From Flavobacteriaceae bacterium CG_4_10_14_3_um_filter_33_47 (GTDB lineage: Bacteria > Bacteroidota > Bacteroidia > Flavobacteriales > Flavobacteriaceae): a stretch of DNA of 35,469 nt. The stretch covers positions 1-35,469 of the forward strand of contig PFKE01000132.1 of the NCBI GenBank assembly GCA_002784145.1, written 5' to 3'. Position numbers and translations under genes: made by a program. Position 1 is the first letter of the stretch; the number at the start of each line of letters is the position of its first letter. This document shows positions 8,006 through 16,518 of this stretch, in pieces. The notes under the pieces were generated by a model. That model saw only the letters and a list, made by a program, of their open reading frames with translations, did no database searches and was not told the origin of the DNA.

Positions 8006-10495
8006 ATGGCTAAGAATTTAGTAATTGTAGAATCACCGGCTAAGGCTAAAACTATTGAAAAATTTTTAGGTAAAGATTTTATAGTAGAATCAAGTTTTGG
8101 CCATATTTCTGATCTTCCTTCTAAGGAATTAGGGGTTGATGTTGAAGGAGATTTTAAACCAAAGTATGAAGTTTCAAGAGATAAAAAAGCCGTTGTGAAA
8201 AAACTTAAAGATCTAGCCAAAAACTCCGATATGGTTTGGTTAGCAAGTGATGAGGATCGTGAGGGAGAAGCCATTGCGTGGCATTTAGCAGAGGCCTTAA
8301 ATTTAGATAAAGCTAAAACAAAACGTATTGTTTTTCATGAAATCACAAAAACGGCCATTTTAAAAGCTATTGAAAACCCTCGAGGCATTGATTATAATTT
8401 GGTAGATGCACAACAAGCACGTAGAGTTTTAGATAGAATTGTAGGTTATGAGTTGTCCCCTGTGCTTTGGAGAAAGGTAAAAGGAGGACTATCGGCAGGA
8501 AGAGTGCAATCTGTTTCAGTAAGGTTAATTGTAGAGCGTGAGCGCGAAATCCAAGAATTTAAGTCGGTGGCGTCTTTTAGAATTGATGCTGAGTTCTCCA
8601 ATGAAGCAGGACAGTCCTTCAAGGCAAAATTACCAAAGACCTTTTCAACGCAGGCCGAGGCTTATAAATTTCTGGAATCTAATATTAATGCAACTTTTAA
8701 AGTTTCAGAATTAGAAAAAAAGCCAGCTAAAAAATCACCAGCGGCACCATTTACAACATCAACACTTCAACAGGAAGCATCCAGAAAGCTGTATTTTTCA
8801 GTAAGTAAAACCATGACCATGGCTCAGCGTTTGTATGAATCCGGGCTAATTACATACATGAGAACGGATAGTGTTAATTTATCCAATGAAGCTAGAAAGG
8901 GTGCTCAAAATGAAATAGAATCTGCTTTTGGTTCAAAATATTCCAAACCCAGAAATTTTACTGGAAAATCAAAAGGAGCACAGGAAGCTCATGAGGCCAT
9001 AAGACCTACAGATTTCTCATTGCATTCTGTAGATATTGACTGGGATCAATCACGTTTATACGATTTAATTTGGAAACGAGCCATTGCATCACAAATGAGT
9101 GAAGCAGAATTAGAGCGTACCAATGTGAAGATAAATTCATCAACTCACAAAGAACAATTTAATGCAAATGGAGAAGTCATCACTTTTGATGGATTTTTAA
9201 AAGTATATTTAGAAGGCAATGATGATGAAGATTTAGAGCAAGAAGGTATGTTGCCCGCCATGAAAACCAATGAAACACTTATAAATAACTACATAACCGC
9301 TACTGAACGATATACGCGTCCGCCATATCGTTATACGGAGGCTTCTTTGGTTAAGCAATTGGAAGAATTAGGTATTGGCAGACCGTCAACGTATGCGCCA
9401 ACCATTTCAACCATTCAAAATAGAAATTATGTTGAAAAAGGCAGTGTGGAAGGTGTAGAGCGAAATTATACCCAACTAACACTTAAAAAAGGCGTTGTAA
9501 AAGATAAAATGCTAACTGAAAAGTATGGCTCAGATAAAGGAAAATTAGTTCCTACCGATATTGGAATGATCGTAACAGATTTCTTAGTAAATCATTTTGA
9601 ACATATTTTAGATTACAATTTTACCGCTAAAGTTGAAGAAGATTTTGATGATATTGCCGAAGGTAAAGAAGATTGGACTAAAGTGATGAAAAGTTTTTAC
9701 AAAGATTTTCATCCGCAAGTGGAGCATGTTCAAGAAAATGCCGACAGAGAATCTGGTGAACGTGTTCTGGGAACAGACCCAAAAACAGGTAAACAAGTGA
9801 GTGTTCGTTTAGGAAAATTTGGCCCTATGGTTCAAATAGGAACGGTTGATGATGATGAAAAACCGCAATTTGCCAGCCTTTCTCCAGACCAGCAATTAAA
9901 TACCATTACCTATAATGAGGCCATGGATTTATTTCAATTACCTAAAAGTTTAGGCGCTTATAAAGGGGAAGAATTGGAAGTCAATAACGGTAGGTTTGGT
10001 CCTTATATTAAATATGGTGAAAAATTTGTATCACTTCCAAAAGGACAAGACCCATTAAGCATAGAACTTCAAGATGCTATTGAATTAATAAAAGAAAAAG
10101 AGGAAGCAGATGCCCCTATTTACACCTATAAAAACCTGCCTGTTCAAAAAGGGAAAGGACGATTTGGGCCTTTTATAAAATGGAACAATACGTTTATTAA
10201 TGTTAACAATAAATATGACTGGGACAATTTATCAGATCATGATATTATAGAACTCATTGAAACAAAAATTCAAAAAGACATTGATAAAGTGGTGCATCAT
10301 TGGGAAGAAGAAGGTATTCGTGTTGAAAAAGCACGTTGGGGAAGACATACTATTTTCAAGGGAAAAACCAAGATTGAATTAGATAAATCTATTGATGCTA
10401 CTAAATTAACTTTAGATAAGGTCAAAAATATTATTGAAGAAAAAGCTCCAAAGAAAAAAGTTGCAAAGAAAAAATCACCAATAAAAAAGAAGTAG
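8006..10495 (+). CDS. topA: DNA topoisomerase I
   Basis: MAKNLVIVESPAKAKTIEKFLG, SDEDREGEAIAWHL, active-site region GLITYMRTDSVNLS, Lys-rich C-terminal tail. Confidence 0.98.
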   Translation: MAKNLVIVESPAKAKTIEKFLGKDFIVESSFGHISDLPSKELGVDVEGDFKPKYEVSRDKKAVVKKLKDLAKNSDMVWLASDEDREGEAIAWHLAEALNLDKAKTKRIVFHEITKTAILKAIENPRGIDYNLVDAQQARRVLDRIVGYELSPVLWRKVKGGLSAGRVQSVSVRLIVEREREIQEFKSVASFRIDAEFSNEAGQSFKAKLPKTFSTQAEAYKFLESNINATFKVSELEKKPAKKSPAAPFTTSTLQQEASRKLYFSVSKTMTMAQRLYESGLITYMRTDSVNLSNEARKGAQNEIESAFGSKYSKPRNFTGKSKGAQEAHEAIRPTDFSLHSVDIDWDQSRLYDLIWKRAIASQMSEAELERTNVKINSSTHKEQFNANGEVITFDGFLKVYLEGNDDEDLEQEGMLPAMKTNETLINNYITATERYTRPPYRYTEASLVKQLEELGIGRPSTYAPTISTIQNRNYVEKGSVEGVERNYTQLTLKKGVVKDKMLTEKYGSDKGKLVPTDIGMIVTDFLVNHFEHILDYNFTAKVEEDFDDIAEGKEDWTKVMKSFYKDFHPQVEHVQENADRESGERVLGTDPKTGKQVSVRLGKFGPMVQIGTVDDDEKPQFASLSPDQQLNTITYNEAMDLFQLPKSLGAYKGEELEVNNGRFGPYIKYGEKFVSLPKGQDPLSIELQDAIELIKEKEEADAPIYTYKNLPVQKGKGRFGPFIKWNNTFINVNNKYDWDNLSDHDIIELIETKIQKDIDKVVHHWEEEGIRVEKARWGRHTIFKGKTKIELDKSIDATKLTLDKVKNIIEEKAPKKKVAKKKSPIKKK

Positions 10496-10498
10496 TTC

Positions 10499-11665
10499 AT
10501 GAACTTTAATTTTCTATCGCCTGTTTCAGATTTTGTGTTGGCTCATAATGAGTTACTGTCTCAGCAATCACTTGGCAGAAAATTACGTGTTCATTCTAAA
10601 AAACATGGTATTCCAGATTTAGAAGGTGTTAATGTTGCTATTTTGGGAGTTCTGGAAAACAGAAACGACCATAATTACATTGGAGAAACATTTCATTTAA
10701 ATGACATAAGAAAAGCGTTTTATGCGCTATTCCCTGGAAGTTGGAATACTACTATCGCAGATTTAGGCGATATTAATAAAGGAGAAAGCGTTGAGGATAC
10801 TTATTTTGCGCTAAAAACTATCTTGGCAATTTTAATTGATAAGAAAATCATACCTATTATAATAGGAGGCACACAAGATTTAACCTACGCAAACTACAGG
10901 GCTTATGATTCCTTAATACCCATGGTTAATATGGTGAATATTGATAATAAGTTTGATTTAGGAGATTCTACCAAACCTATAAAAAATAATAGTTTTGTTG
11001 GTAAGATAATTTTAGACAAGCCTTACAACCTATTTAATTATGCAACCATTGGGTATCAAACCTATTTTAATTCGCAAGAAGAAATAGATTTAATGGATAA
11101 GCTTTATTTCGAATCGTATCGATTAGGGCAAATTTCAAAAGATGTAACGTTGGTAGAACCCGTACTTCGAGACGCAAATATTGTTAGTCTCGATTTAAAT
11201 TCTGTAAAAAGTTCTGAGGTTAGTTTAAATCAAAAATATTCACCCAACGGTTTTGATGGTAAAGAAATTTGTGCCATATCACGTTATGCAGGAATTAGTA
11301 ATAAAGTTTCATCCTTTGGAATTTATGAATACAAACCTTCAAAAGACGATGAAATTACCAGTATGCTAGTGGCGCAAATTATTTGGTATTTCATAGAAGG
11401 TGTTAATTACAGAATCAAGGATGATAATTTTACCGATGAAAATAATCATCAAAAATACATTACCTTAGTTGACGACCAAGAGCTCATCTTCTATAAGAGT
11501 AATAAAACAGGAAGATGGTGGATTGAAATTCCTTTTTTATTGGAGATAAATACTAAATTAAAGAGACATACGTTATTACCTTGCATGCATCAAGATTATT
11601 TAGACGCCTGTAATAATAAGGTTCCAGACCGTTGGTACAAAGCGTTTCAAAAAAATAGTATATAG
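10499..11665 (+). CDS. Arginase/formimidoylglutamase-fold family protein with degenerate metal-binding motifs
   Basis: 388 aa; arginase-fold landmarks at IIIGGTQDLTYANYRAY, MVNIDNKFDLGD and IVSLDLNSVKSSE; starts 3 nt after the topA stop. Confidence 0.8.
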   Translation: MNFNFLSPVSDFVLAHNELLSQQSLGRKLRVHSKKHGIPDLEGVNVAILGVLENRNDHNYIGETFHLNDIRKAFYALFPGSWNTTIADLGDINKGESVEDTYFALKTILAILIDKKIIPIIIGGTQDLTYANYRAYDSLIPMVNMVNIDNKFDLGDSTKPIKNNSFVGKIILDKPYNLFNYATIGYQTYFNSQEEIDLMDKLYFESYRLGQISKDVTLVEPVLRDANIVSLDLNSVKSSEVSLNQKYSPNGFDGKEICAISRYAGISNKVSSFGIYEYKPSKDDEITSMLVAQIIWYFIEGVNYRIKDDNFTDENNHQKYITLVDDQELIFYKSNKTGRWWIEIPFLLEINTKLKRHTLLPCMHQDYLDACNNKVPDRWYKAFQKNSI

Positions 11666-11690
11666 ATGTAAATACTGACTAAAAGATGAG

Positions 11691-11737
11691 TTTCATCGGT
11701 AAAATGTATTTTTTTTACGATGAAATGTATTTTTTTT
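11691..11737 (+). terminator. Hairpin plus T-run upstream of gldK (terminator or operator)
   Basis: TTTCATCG(g)TAAAA ... TTTTACGATGAAA inverted repeat with one bulged base, then TGTATTTTTTTTTC. Confidence 0.55.
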
Positions 11738-11820
11738 TCAAAAATAGTTGTTTTTTTAAAAATATATAAATATGTTTACGCTCTCAAAATGAAGCTTAAA
11801 TAATTAACCTCGAGTTTTCT

Positions 11821-13194
11821 ATGGATATGAAGAAGTTTATTTTATTAACTGTATTACTAGTACTACTAGCAAGTTGTGGCTCTAACGATAGAGGCGAATT
11901 AGTAGGCGTTCAAGGTAAGAAATGGCATCCAGAAAAGCCTTTCGGAATGGAACTTGTTCCTGGAGGCGCTTTTATAATGGGTAAAGCAGATGACGATTTA
12001 GCTGGTGTGCACGATGCATCTGCTAAAACAGTAACTGTTAGATCTTTTTATATGGATGAAACCGAAATAACTAACAGTGAATACCGTCAATTTGTAAATT
12101 GGGTAAGAGATTCAATTGTTAGAACCAAGTTAGCTATTTTAGCTGATGAAATTGGTAAAGTTCCAGATGATGGTGGTATTGGTGAGTATGCTTTTAAAGA
12201 TGCCGATACAGCCAATATGTCTGTGTATGAAAAGTATATGTTTGAAAACTATACAGGTTTAGGACCAACAGGATACGAAGGAAGAAAATTAAACAAAGAT
12301 GTTGATTTAATTTATGATACCGAAGATTATCCAGATGAGTGGTACACAGAAGTGATGGATACCATGTATCTTCCTATTGAAGAATCATATAACGGTCAAC
12401 GTACTTGGGATGTGAAGAAATTTCAATTCCAATACACTTATATGGATATTCAAAAAGCAGCAAAAAACAGAAATTTAAAGCGTAAAGACGTTTTGATTAA
12501 AGAACAGATTGAAGTTTATCCAGACACTACAACTTGGATTAGAGATTTCGCTTATTCTTATAACGAGCCCATGCATAACGATTATTTTTGGCACGATGCT
12601 TACAGCGATTATCCTGTGGTTGGCGTTACTTGGCAACAGGCCAAAGCATTTTGCCAATGGAGAACACTTTATAAAAATTCTTATCAAAAATCAAGAAAAG
12701 GAGCAGCTTTTGTAAATTCTTTCAGATTACCTTCTGAAGCTGAATGGGAGTACGCAGCAAGAGGTGGTTTGCAAGCAGCAACCTATCCTTGGGGCGATTA
12801 TTATACCAAGAGCGATAGAGGTTGTTTTATGGCAAACTTTAAACCGGTAAGAGGTGATTATGCAGCAGATCAAGCATTATACACTGTTGAAGCTAAATCT
12901 TATGAGCCTAACGATTATAACTTATATAATATGGCTGGTAACGTATCAGAATGGGTAAACGCTTCATACGATCCATCATCTTACGATTATGTTTCAACCA
13001 TAAATCCAAGTGTTAACGATAATAACAATCAGCGTAAAGTAGTTCGTGGCGGATCTTGGAAAGATGTTGCATATTTTTTACAAGTTAGTTCAAGAGATTA
13101 TGAATATGCAGATTCAGCAAGATCTTACATAGGATTCAGAACCGTTCAAGATTACATGGGGACTCAAGTAACCAAAAACGGAAAAAAGAATTAA
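11821..13194 (+). CDS. gldK: Gliding motility/T9SS lipoprotein GldK (FGE/sulfatase-modifying-factor fold)
   Basis: Lipobox LVLLASCGSNDRG; PGGAFIMGKADDD, SFRLPSEAEWEYAARGG, YNMAGNVSEWV, RKVVRGGSWKD; followed by gldLMN. An alternative ATG lies at 11827. Confidence 0.96.
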   Translation: MDMKKFILLTVLLVLLASCGSNDRGELVGVQGKKWHPEKPFGMELVPGGAFIMGKADDDLAGVHDASAKTVTVRSFYMDETEITNSEYRQFVNWVRDSIVRTKLAILADEIGKVPDDGGIGEYAFKDADTANMSVYEKYMFENYTGLGPTGYEGRKLNKDVDLIYDTEDYPDEWYTEVMDTMYLPIEESYNGQRTWDVKKFQFQYTYMDIQKAAKNRNLKRKDVLIKEQIEVYPDTTTWIRDFAYSYNEPMHNDYFWHDAYSDYPVVGVTWQQAKAFCQWRTLYKNSYQKSRKGAAFVNSFRLPSEAEWEYAARGGLQAATYPWGDYYTKSDRGCFMANFKPVRGDYAADQALYTVEAKSYEPNDYNLYNMAGNVSEWVNASYDPSSYDYVSTINPSVNDNNNQRKVVRGGSWKDVAYFLQVSSRDYEYADSARSYIGFRTVQDYMGTQVTKNGKKN

Positions 13195-13271
13195 TCAAAA
13201 ATTTTAAACAACAATTTAATACTATTAATTAACCTACTTAAGTATTTAACTTAAATTAAAAACCGAAAATT

Positions 13272-13913
13272 ATGGCACAGTCAAGAGCAAGTAAGAAATT
13301 TATGAATTTAGCTTACGGATTAGGAGCATCAATTGTAATCGTTGGAGCACTATTTAAAATCATTCACTTTGAAATTGGACCTTTAACAGGTAACGTTATG
13401 TTAACTATTGGTTTAGTTACAGAAGCAATTATCTTTGCAATATCAGCATTTGAACCAGTTGATAGCGAATTAGATTGGTCTCTAGTATATCCAGAGTTAG
13501 CTGGAGGAGAATCTACACACAGCAAAAAAGAATCAAAAGACGCCCAAGGTCTACTTTCAAAAAAATTAGATGAGTTATTAAAAGACGCTAAAATTGATGG
13601 CGAATTAATGGCAAGTTTAGGAGACAGCATTAAAAACTTTGAAGGCGCAGCAAAAAATATGGCACCAGCTGTAAATTCTATTGAAGCAACCAGAAAATAT
13701 GGTGAAGAATTATCATTAGCTGCTGCTCAAATGGAGTCTTTAAATAGCTTATATAAAGTTCAATTAGAAAGCATTAATCGTCAAGCATCAATTAATGAAG
13801 AATCAATTGAAAATGCCGCTAAATTAAAAGAACAAATGCAATCATTAGCATCTAACTTATCATCATTAAACGGTGTTTATGGTGGTATGTTATCTGCAAT
13901 GACTAAAAACTAA
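13272..13913 (+). CDS. gldL: Gliding/T9SS motor protein GldL
   Basis: Two N-terminal TM helices carrying K29 and E51 (GALFKIIHFEIGP, TIGLVTEAIIFAISAFEP), then a coiled-coil cytoplasmic region. Confidence 0.95.
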   Translation: MAQSRASKKFMNLAYGLGASIVIVGALFKIIHFEIGPLTGNVMLTIGLVTEAIIFAISAFEPVDSELDWSLVYPELAGGESTHSKKESKDAQGLLSKKLDELLKDAKIDGELMASLGDSIKNFEGAAKNMAPAVNSIEATRKYGEELSLAAAQMESLNSLYKVQLESINRQASINEESIENAAKLKEQMQSLASNLSSLNGVYGGMLSAMTKN

Positions 13914-13966
13914 TCATGGTTTTTTATACCCAAATTTTAATATTTAACCAAAAAACCTAATTAGAA

Positions 13967-15526
13967 ATGGCAGGAGGAAATTTATCACCCAGACAGAAAA
14001 TGATCAACTTGATGTATTTAATATTTATAGCCATGCTAGCGTTAAATATGTCAAAAGAAGTGCTTTCAGCATTTGGATTAATGAACGAAAAACTAACCGA
14101 GTCCAATGAAGCAGCTGCAGAACGCAATGCCGCTTTTATGGCCGGATTAGAGCAAAAAGCTAGTGAACAACCAGCTAAATACGAACCCTTAAAAGCACAA
14201 GCAAGTCAAATCAAATCATTGGCTAATAATTTTGATGCTTATTTAGAGAGTTTAAAAACTAAAATGATTGCCAAGATTGATAATCCTACAGACTATGAAA
14301 TCATGGATAAAGGAGATTATCTTGATGAAAATTTCTTTAAAGGAGACATCATCAAACCAGACGGAAAAGAATTTTTAAGTCAAATAGCAACCTTTAGAGA
14401 TGGCGTGGTTAAAGTGTTATCAAATCAGGAAGGCATGGAAGCTGTTATAGACGATGTTAAAAAGAAATTCAATACCGATGCTGTAAAGCGTGGCGCTGGA
14501 AAAGTTGAATGGTTAGACCACAATTTTAAAGGATTTCCTTTAGTGGCTTCGTTAACAAAAATGACCCAACTTCAATCTGATATTAAAACAACAGAATCTG
14601 AAGTGATGTCAACCATGTTAAAAGGTACACTAACCAGCGAAGTGTCTATGACCAACTATACAACCTTACTAGAAACCACAAAATCAGCTTACTTTAATGG
14701 CGAGCAGTTTGATGGTCAAATCGTGTTAGGAAGAAAAGATAATTCAACTAAACCTAACCGAGTAGAATTGACTTTAGACGGAAGAAAGCTTTCTGATAAA
14801 GAATATGCTATTGAAGAAGGAAAAGTAAAATTAAAAGTTGGAACCGGTAGTGTGGGAGAACATAAAATAGGAGGGAAATTGATTTTCGTCCAAGATGGTG
14901 AAGAAGTTGAAGTGCCTGTAGAACAATCATTTGCTACGGTTGCAAAACCAAATGCAGCTACCATTTCTGCTGATAAAATGAATGTGGTATATCGTGGTGT
15001 TAAAAACCCAATGACGATTTCATTTGCTGGAATAGCAGATAATAATGTAAAAGCTAATGCTCCTGGATTGACAAAAGTAAATGGAATTGGTAAATATGTT
15101 ATGGATGCTACACAAATTAAAGGCAGAGAAGTTACCATTAATGTTACTGGAGTTTTAGATGGTAAATCAATACCAGATAATGCAACATTCAGAATTAAAG
15201 ATTTACCAAAACCAACAGGTACTGTTCGAGGTGAAGATGGGTCTTTAAACATGCAACGTAATAGTCTTGAAATTTCAACCATTGGAGCAAAATTTGATGA
15301 TTTTGATTTTGAATTACCATTAAGTGTAACAGGATTTAAATTTAAAGTTCCAGGACAACCTACTATTGAGGTTAATGGTAATAAATTAGATACAAGAGCT
15401 AAACAAGCGTTAAGCAAAGCAAAACGTGGTAGTGGCATTCAGATTTTTGATATTGAAGCCAAAGCACAAGGAGTAAGTGTTATACTTAAAAAAGTATCGC
15501 CAGTATTTATTGAGCTTACAAATTAG
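13967..15526 (+). CDS. gldM: Gliding/T9SS motor protein GldM
   Basis: MAGGNLSPRQKMINLMYLIFIAMLALNMSKEVLSAFGLMNEKL is the GldM N-terminal signature; 519 aa. Confidence 0.97.
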   Translation: MAGGNLSPRQKMINLMYLIFIAMLALNMSKEVLSAFGLMNEKLTESNEAAAERNAAFMAGLEQKASEQPAKYEPLKAQASQIKSLANNFDAYLESLKTKMIAKIDNPTDYEIMDKGDYLDENFFKGDIIKPDGKEFLSQIATFRDGVVKVLSNQEGMEAVIDDVKKKFNTDAVKRGAGKVEWLDHNFKGFPLVASLTKMTQLQSDIKTTESEVMSTMLKGTLTSEVSMTNYTTLLETTKSAYFNGEQFDGQIVLGRKDNSTKPNRVELTLDGRKLSDKEYAIEEGKVKLKVGTGSVGEHKIGGKLIFVQDGEEVEVPVEQSFATVAKPNAATISADKMNVVYRGVKNPMTISFAGIADNNVKANAPGLTKVNGIGKYVMDATQIKGREVTINVTGVLDGKSIPDNATFRIKDLPKPTGTVRGEDGSLNMQRNSLEISTIGAKFDDFDFELPLSVTGFKFKVPGQPTIEVNGNKLDTRAKQALSKAKRGSGIQIFDIEAKAQGVSVILKKVSPVFIELTN

Positions 15527-15541
15527 AATAAAACAGATGAA

Positions 15542-15591
15542 ACATCCATAATTTAAATTTAGTATATATTAGCTAAATCCATTATGGATGT
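15542..15591 (+). other. Imperfect two-part stem-loop in the gldM-gldN intergenic region
   Basis: ACATCCATAAT / ATTATGGATGT perfect 11-bp outer stem; inner ATTTAG / CTAAAT stem; not followed by a T-run. Confidence 0.75.
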
Positions 15592-15627
15592 ATCCTCTAA
15601 TCATTGAATAACAATAAAAACATACAC

Positions 15628-16518
15628 ATGAAATTGAAAAGTTTTTTATTAACCGTTACAACCCTTTTTGCTATATCAGGGGTATTTGCCCAAGCAAATA
15701 TTCTTAATGCAAAAAGTCCTGAGGAAATTGGAGTTAGAACAGAGGCACAAAAAGCTATTGACAATGATAAACCATTGGAGTATGGTTATGTTGATGATAG
15801 AGATATCCTTTTTGCAAAAATGACTTGGGAAAAAGTGGTTCTTGATGAACGAGCTAACTTTCCATTATACTACCCCATTGACACCAATAATATAGGTAGT
15901 AACAGACGCTCATTATACGATGTTCTTATCAAGAACATTAAAAATGGGAATATAAAAAACATTTATGATGATTCTTATTTTACTGGAAAACGTACTTTAA
16001 AAGATATTCAATCTGCATTAGTTAAAATTGATACCACCGAATTAGGTATTGAGCAAATCAATGCTGGTGAAGAATTATCACCAGAATATATCAACAGGAG
16101 AGATATTACAGCTGCCGATATAAAAGAATATCGAATAAAAGGCTTGTGGTATTTTGATAAGCGTCAAGCTGAAATGAAATATAGACTTTTAGGAATTGCT
16201 CCAGTAGCGCCAGATGTTCAAACCATTGATCAAGAAACTCCAGATTTAGTGCCTTTATTTTGGGTGTTTTTCCCAGATGCCAGAAACGTATTGCACGAAG
16301 CCAAAGCTTTTAATAATGAAAACAGCACCATGCCTTTTTCATTTGATCATATTTTAAACGCAAGACGTTTTCATGGGTATATTTATAAAGAAGAAAATGT
16401 ACAAGGCGATAGAGCTATTACCGAGTACGTCTCACAAAATGCTTTAATGCAATTGTTAGAATCTGATAGGATTAAAGATAAGATTAGAGATTTTGAACTT
16501 GATATGTGGACTTATTAA
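15628..16518 (+). CDS. gldN: Gliding motility/T9SS protein GldN
   Basis: The track ORF begins at TTG 15604; the better start is ATG 15628 (MKLKSFLLTVTTLFAISGVFAQ signal peptide). Position and PLFWVFFPDARNVLHEAKAFN fit GldN. Confidence 0.94.
   Translation: MKLKSFLLTVTTLFAISGVFAQANILNAKSPEEIGVRTEAQKAIDNDKPLEYGYVDDRDILFAKMTWEKVVLDERANFPLYYPIDTNNIGSNRRSLYDVLIKNIKNGNIKNIYDDSYFTGKRTLKDIQSALVKIDTTELGIEQINAGEELSPEYINRRDITAADIKEYRIKGLWYFDKRQAEMKYRLLGIAPVAPDVQTIDQETPDLVPLFWVFFPDARNVLHEAKAFNNENSTMPFSFDHILNARRFHGYIYKEENVQGDRAITEYVSQNALMQLLESDRIKDKIRDFELDMWTY

Follow-up and report, generated by a model that had tools for sequence, protein, structure and literature searches.

A class-wide arginase-fold protein of Bacteroidia with a degraded metal site, probably retained as a pseudoenzyme

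The locus and the gap ahead of gldK

The window analysed here is a stretch of 35,469 nucleotides from a Flavobacteriaceae bacterium. It carries an arginase-fold gene between topA and the gldKLMN genes, all on the forward strand, with two candidate regulatory elements in the gap before gldK:

8006..10495, + strand: topA, 3 bp upstream of the arginase-fold gene and in the same orientation
10499..11665, + strand: arginase-fold gene, 388 aa, probable pseudoenzyme with three of six metal ligands replaced
11685..11739, + strand: TTTCATCG...CGATGAAA, a terminator-like hairpin with a T-run after it, 3' of the arginase-fold gene
11747..11779, + strand: conserved promoter-like block GTTGTTTTTTT...ATATATAAATATGTTTAC upstream of gldK
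11821..16518, + strand: gldK, gldL, gldM and gldN, the neighbouring T9SS/gliding core, probably a separate transcription unit

The open reading frame is present as first described; 3 bases lie between the topA stop and its start, and 155 bases between its end and gldK. The order topA, arginase-fold gene, gldK was found in all 30 Flavobacteriales loci checked. In a class-wide sample of 51 loci, the genes near the family gene included those for PorP/SprF (n = 15), gldK (n = 17) and topA (n = 14), so that linkage to gldK was missing in about two thirds, and the direct abutment on topA seen in the window is not shared by most other families. Other neighbours vary across the class (PrmA, GcvT, MerR and RmuC). 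Where gldK was not adjacent, a divergent NAD-dependent epimerase/SDR gene adjoined the arginase-fold gene in 11 of the 51 loci (L174, L183, L184, L188, L189, L195, L205, L206, L208, L210 and L215). This gene was considered as a class-wide neighbour clue and set aside given its presence at those 11 loci only and the variable neighbours elsewhere, and no functional hint was drawn from it. No paper on the arginase-fold gene beside gldK was found in the literature searched, which lay mostly outside subscription journals.

The hairpin in the gap folds at -13.3 kcal/mol in the window (z -3.2), and a hairpin with a T-run precedes gldK in many, not all, relatives of the host species. The promoter-like block is almost invariant across 21 sequences. 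Its -7-like element, TATGTTTA, resembles TAnnTTTG, which we take to be the Bacteroidota consensus; a strict search for a consensus of this type did not match the element. RNAalifold, run on the alignment of the whole gap, recovered neither the hairpin nor any covariation, and the hairpin thus rests on single-sequence folds and on the conservation of its arms. A scan for sigma-70 promoters and terminators gave nothing above shuffled sequences, and the loop limit of that scan excludes the 11685..11739 hairpin. In the published treatment gldKLMN is an operon with a promoter predicted just upstream of gldK (PMC5879114). The arginase-fold gene and gldKLMN are probably separate transcription units in the host lineage. 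Between 11685 and 11820 of the window, the hairpin with its T-run and the AT-rich promoter-like block are followed by a conserved AACCTCGAGTTT leader ahead of gldK, an arrangement found in many Flavobacteriaceae.

Fold, former metal site and newly constrained residues

The 388-aa product matched the Pfam Arginase family (PF00491) at E 9.9e-14, with 51.9 bits against a cut-off of 22. Its score to NCBIfam hutG (TIGR01227) was 58.8 bits, far under the equivalog cut-off of 229.15, which places it outside the HutG equivalog. An AlphaFold2 model built with 57 orthologs as input reached a mean pLDDT of 92.8 and a pTM of 0.93, and the top PDB matches in Foldseek were the formiminoglutamases of T. cruzi and B. 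subtilis, along with metformin hydrolase (E ~1e-15; best E to a formiminoglutamase, 3e-16). The predicted structure confirms that the three-layer alpha-beta-alpha arginase fold is kept. Formimidoylglutamase HutG (TIGR01227; B. subtilis 3m1r, T. cruzi 4mxr) shares this fold and is the closest kin in sequence, and the SFDxDxxRSSDAPG-type motif of relatives outside the class matches the family consensus SFDxxAIRxSDAP. Unlike HutG, the window protein combines its sub-equivalog score with replaced metal ligands and an extra tail of ~85 residues.

The three motifs that hold the di-metal centre in active members are all recognizable and altered:

10865..10879, + strand: GGTQD (residues 123-127) at the site of the former GGDHS motif; the first His ligand is replaced by Q126
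10943..10957, + strand: DNKFD (residues 149-153) at the site of the former DAHxD motif; D149 and D153 remain and the second His is replaced by K151
11186..11218, + strand: SLDLNSVKSSE (residues 230-240) at the site of the former SxDxDxxDP motif; D232 remains and an Asp is replaced by N234

When the protein was aligned jointly with 18 outside-class relatives and 16 paralogs, the ligand positions (H-D-H-D-D-D) fell at Q126, D149, K151, D153, D232 and N234. This upholds the original prediction that three of six ligands, both His among them, have been replaced, and the window protein lacks the full set of six that characterizes the arginase/ureohydrolase enzymes. All six ligands were found in 13 of the 18 outside-class relatives and five in the remaining 5. 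Ligand loss recurred in every ortholog sampled: none of the 57 kept more than four, 39 kept exactly three, and 12 kept two or fewer. Outside the class the second His and last Asp are invariant; among the orthologs these positions vary (K/R/N/S and S/N/G/K, respectively), with K or R at the second His position in 38 of 57. The Asp ligands were mostly kept (D149 in 50, D153 in 47 and D232 in 52 of 57) and the first His was retained in 6/57; conservation of the guanidinium-side Glu (E277) is also relaxed. A substitute conserved His column was not found among the 57 orthologs, the maximum being 24/57 at residues 32 and 357. The placement of intact ligands elsewhere in the protein was ruled out, as His is conserved in no alternative column. 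Given the three Asp ligands left in most orthologs, the protein may bind one metal weakly.

Two other parts of the protein are constrained in this family in particular:

11120..11170, + strand: stretch with the family-specific residues R208, E220 and R224, unconserved in intact relatives
11408..11662, + strand: C-terminal extension (residues 304-388), unique to the family, with KSxxTxRWW and PCxxxDY motifs

Columns 151 and 234 are at the 100th percentile of conservation in intact relatives and at the 41st and 49th, respectively, in the family; R208, E220 and R224 are at the 4th-20th in intact relatives and reach the 97th-100th in the family. Tail residues F331, W340, W341, C362, D366 and Y367 lie at the 95th-100th percentile. 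Judged by these percentiles, the metal site has lost constraint, and R208, E220, R224 and the ~85-residue tail have gained it. In the 21 genomes searched, the tail was found once per genome and on this protein only. It matched nothing in Pfam, PDB sequences or PDB folds, and when modelled alone it gave moderate confidence (pLDDT 74.5).

The host genome also encodes a second arginase-fold protein (L251:313-1255, minus strand, contig C72), beside an arginine decarboxylase-like open reading frame. Its ligand motifs are altered differently, reading GGDQA, GAHTN and TLDLSALDI. The DxHxN form, with the last Asp ligand missing, is common to 7/7 genomes of the genus; the protein of this type in another genus of the family (L231) has an intact site, and the dN/dS values were 0.05-0.15.

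Distribution, selection and the question of gliding

At E 1e-5, 280 of the 296 Bacteroidia genomes had a match to the protein, a count in which a few of the weakest matches may be other family members. The protein occurs as one copy per genome and is kept in genomes of 1.5-1.9 Mb. Retention in 95% of the sampled Bacteroidia genomes, some of them small, points to a likely basic function for the class. The sampled orthologs form one clade (SH-aLRT 99, 61 rows, in a quick tree with several long branches), and in relatives belonging to other classes of the phylum the match stops at about residue 307 and the tail is missing. As the loss of metal ligands is common to one class-wide clade of orthologs, it goes far beyond chance. 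In the simplest history, the metal site was lost once and the tail was gained once, near the base of Bacteroidia.

Among six genomes of the genus, dN/dS was about 0.04 (0.03-0.06), ratios that are approximate because dS is near saturation in several pairs. Such strong purifying selection indicates a kept pseudoenzyme and not a decaying gene; with the ligand loss common to the sampled orthologs and no conserved substitute His, it bears out the pseudoenzyme reading proposed at the outset. Strongly diverged or shortened relatives were observed at six loci (L170-L173, L179 and L180), with open frames of 288-355 aa, nearly all former ligand motifs gone and part of the tail kept.

The original prediction had also offered a possible tie to gliding or the T9SS, and this half of it did not survive as an obligate role. 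An accessory of the T9SS/gliding machinery would act from the cytoplasm with GldKLMN, in assembly, regulation or energisation. Such a role is consistent with the adjacency to gldK throughout the Flavobacteriales loci checked and with the recurrence of topA, PorP/SprF and gldKLMN around the family gene in 13-17 of 51 class-wide loci. The presence of the protein and that of GldM were also associated over the 296 genomes (278/2/10/6, Fisher p 2e-7), although this table takes no account of phylogeny and gives weight to reduced genomes and to one family. Presence and absence nevertheless dissociate in both directions. In family f53 the protein was found in 61/61 genomes, though SprA is missing in seven; two of these (G264 and G594) are also without GldM, and they and the other five keep the protein at full length. 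Conversely, ten genomes have both SprA and GldM and no family protein (G056, G137, G193, G217, G238, G251, G288, G312, G323 and G329), and two more (G035 and G036) have SprA and no family protein. The family protein therefore does not follow the T9SS phyletically, a statistical association remaining, and an obligate gliding/T9SS role is rejected by the SprA and GldM patterns. With gldK linkage missing in most families, and with the hairpin, T-run and nearly invariant promoter-like block parting the family gene from gldK in relatives of the host, we regard even an accessory role as quite unlikely. GldK, GldL, GldM, GldN and PorP/SprF are genomic neighbours of the family gene in Flavobacteriales and several other lineages that have no sequence kinship with it and are separable from it in presence and, here, probably in transcription. 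Five complete or nearly complete genomes (G076, G593, G609, G618 and G632) have a GldM-like protein, and a SprA_N match was not found in them.

A retained ureohydrolase fold and its possible roles

We consider the protein to be a conserved housekeeping pseudoenzyme with a non-hydrolytic ureohydrolase fold, acting as a scaffold or a ligand-binding regulator (probability roughly 0.7). At or near the base of Bacteroidia, the di-metal centre of a formimidoylglutamase-like ureohydrolase would have been lost and the C-terminal extension gained, and the altered protein would have been retained since then as one copy per genome with its fold kept. The Lys or Arg at the second His position may form a salt bridge with the remaining Asp, standing in for the metal, and R208, E220 and R224 together with the RWW and PC..DY tail could be where a protein partner or small ligand binds. 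The protein would then work by binding and would hydrolyse neither guanidino nor formimino groups.

A new catalytic activity, with an active site of R208, E220, R224, C258, C362, D366 and Y367, would also account for these polar residues, which are invariant or nearly so in the 57 diverse orthologs, accompany the tail and lack conservation in intact relatives. We found no known enzyme with this arrangement, however; the tail alone matches no fold, and invariant Arg, Trp and Cys would fit a structural or interface role equally well, which makes new catalysis unlikely. It is very improbable that the protein is still a metal-dependent ureohydrolase with a non-standard or mononuclear site. The three Asp ligands kept in most orthologs and the occasional first His would suit such an enzyme, as would a formiminoglutamase that has Asn close to its first ligand, implied by the title of PDB entry 4myn (N114H variant); against this, the second His and the last Asp vary freely among orthologs, no conserved His column replaces them, and the guanidinium-side Glu is relaxed.

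The superfamily offers a precedent for inactive subunits: in metformin hydrolase, active and inactive arginase-fold subunits are paired, and MetCb/MfmB, the inactive one, carries an extended C-terminal loop and lacks five of six metal ligands (PMC11271267). MetCb/MfmB (8x3g, 8snf) resembles the family protein as an arginase-family pseudoenzyme without its metal site, and metformin hydrolase chains were among the top Foldseek matches. MetCb, however, is encoded beside its active partner, whereas the family gene is not adjacent to another arginase-family gene and the protein occurs class-wide, including in genomes with no other arginase-family protein. In two 99% complete genomes (G025 and G031) it is the only PF00491 protein at E 1e-5, leaving no intact partner of the MetCb type, and G010 and G029, which are less complete, show the same. 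An obligate arginase-fold partner is excluded by the nearly complete genomes with no second PF00491 protein, and we consider it extremely improbable that the protein serves, as MetCb does to MetCa, as the inactive subunit of a hetero-oligomeric ureohydrolase. A second parallel is the arginase-like protein of Trypanosoma brucei (4rhi, 4rhk, 4rhq and 4rhm), whose metal site is also lost. Judging by the title of its S149D/R151H/S153D/S226D mutant, it has Arg at the second His position, a feature shared with many orthologs of the family; this eukaryotic protein has lost a different set of ligands, with Ser at several Asp positions.

One further proposal is tentative and rather doubtful: that the dead ureohydrolase fold and the new tail domain together form a new ligand-sensing or catalytic site in an essential or near-essential core protein of Bacteroidia. 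Such a core role could have gone unnoticed because the gene resembles that of a formimidoylglutamase or arginase-family protein. The family name suggests a reaction that the protein very probably cannot catalyse. The T9SS neighbourhood hints at a motility role, and the phyletic test directs the search elsewhere. The family clearly illustrates how an enzyme fold can be repurposed a single time and then retained class-wide, with constraint visibly shifted to new residues.
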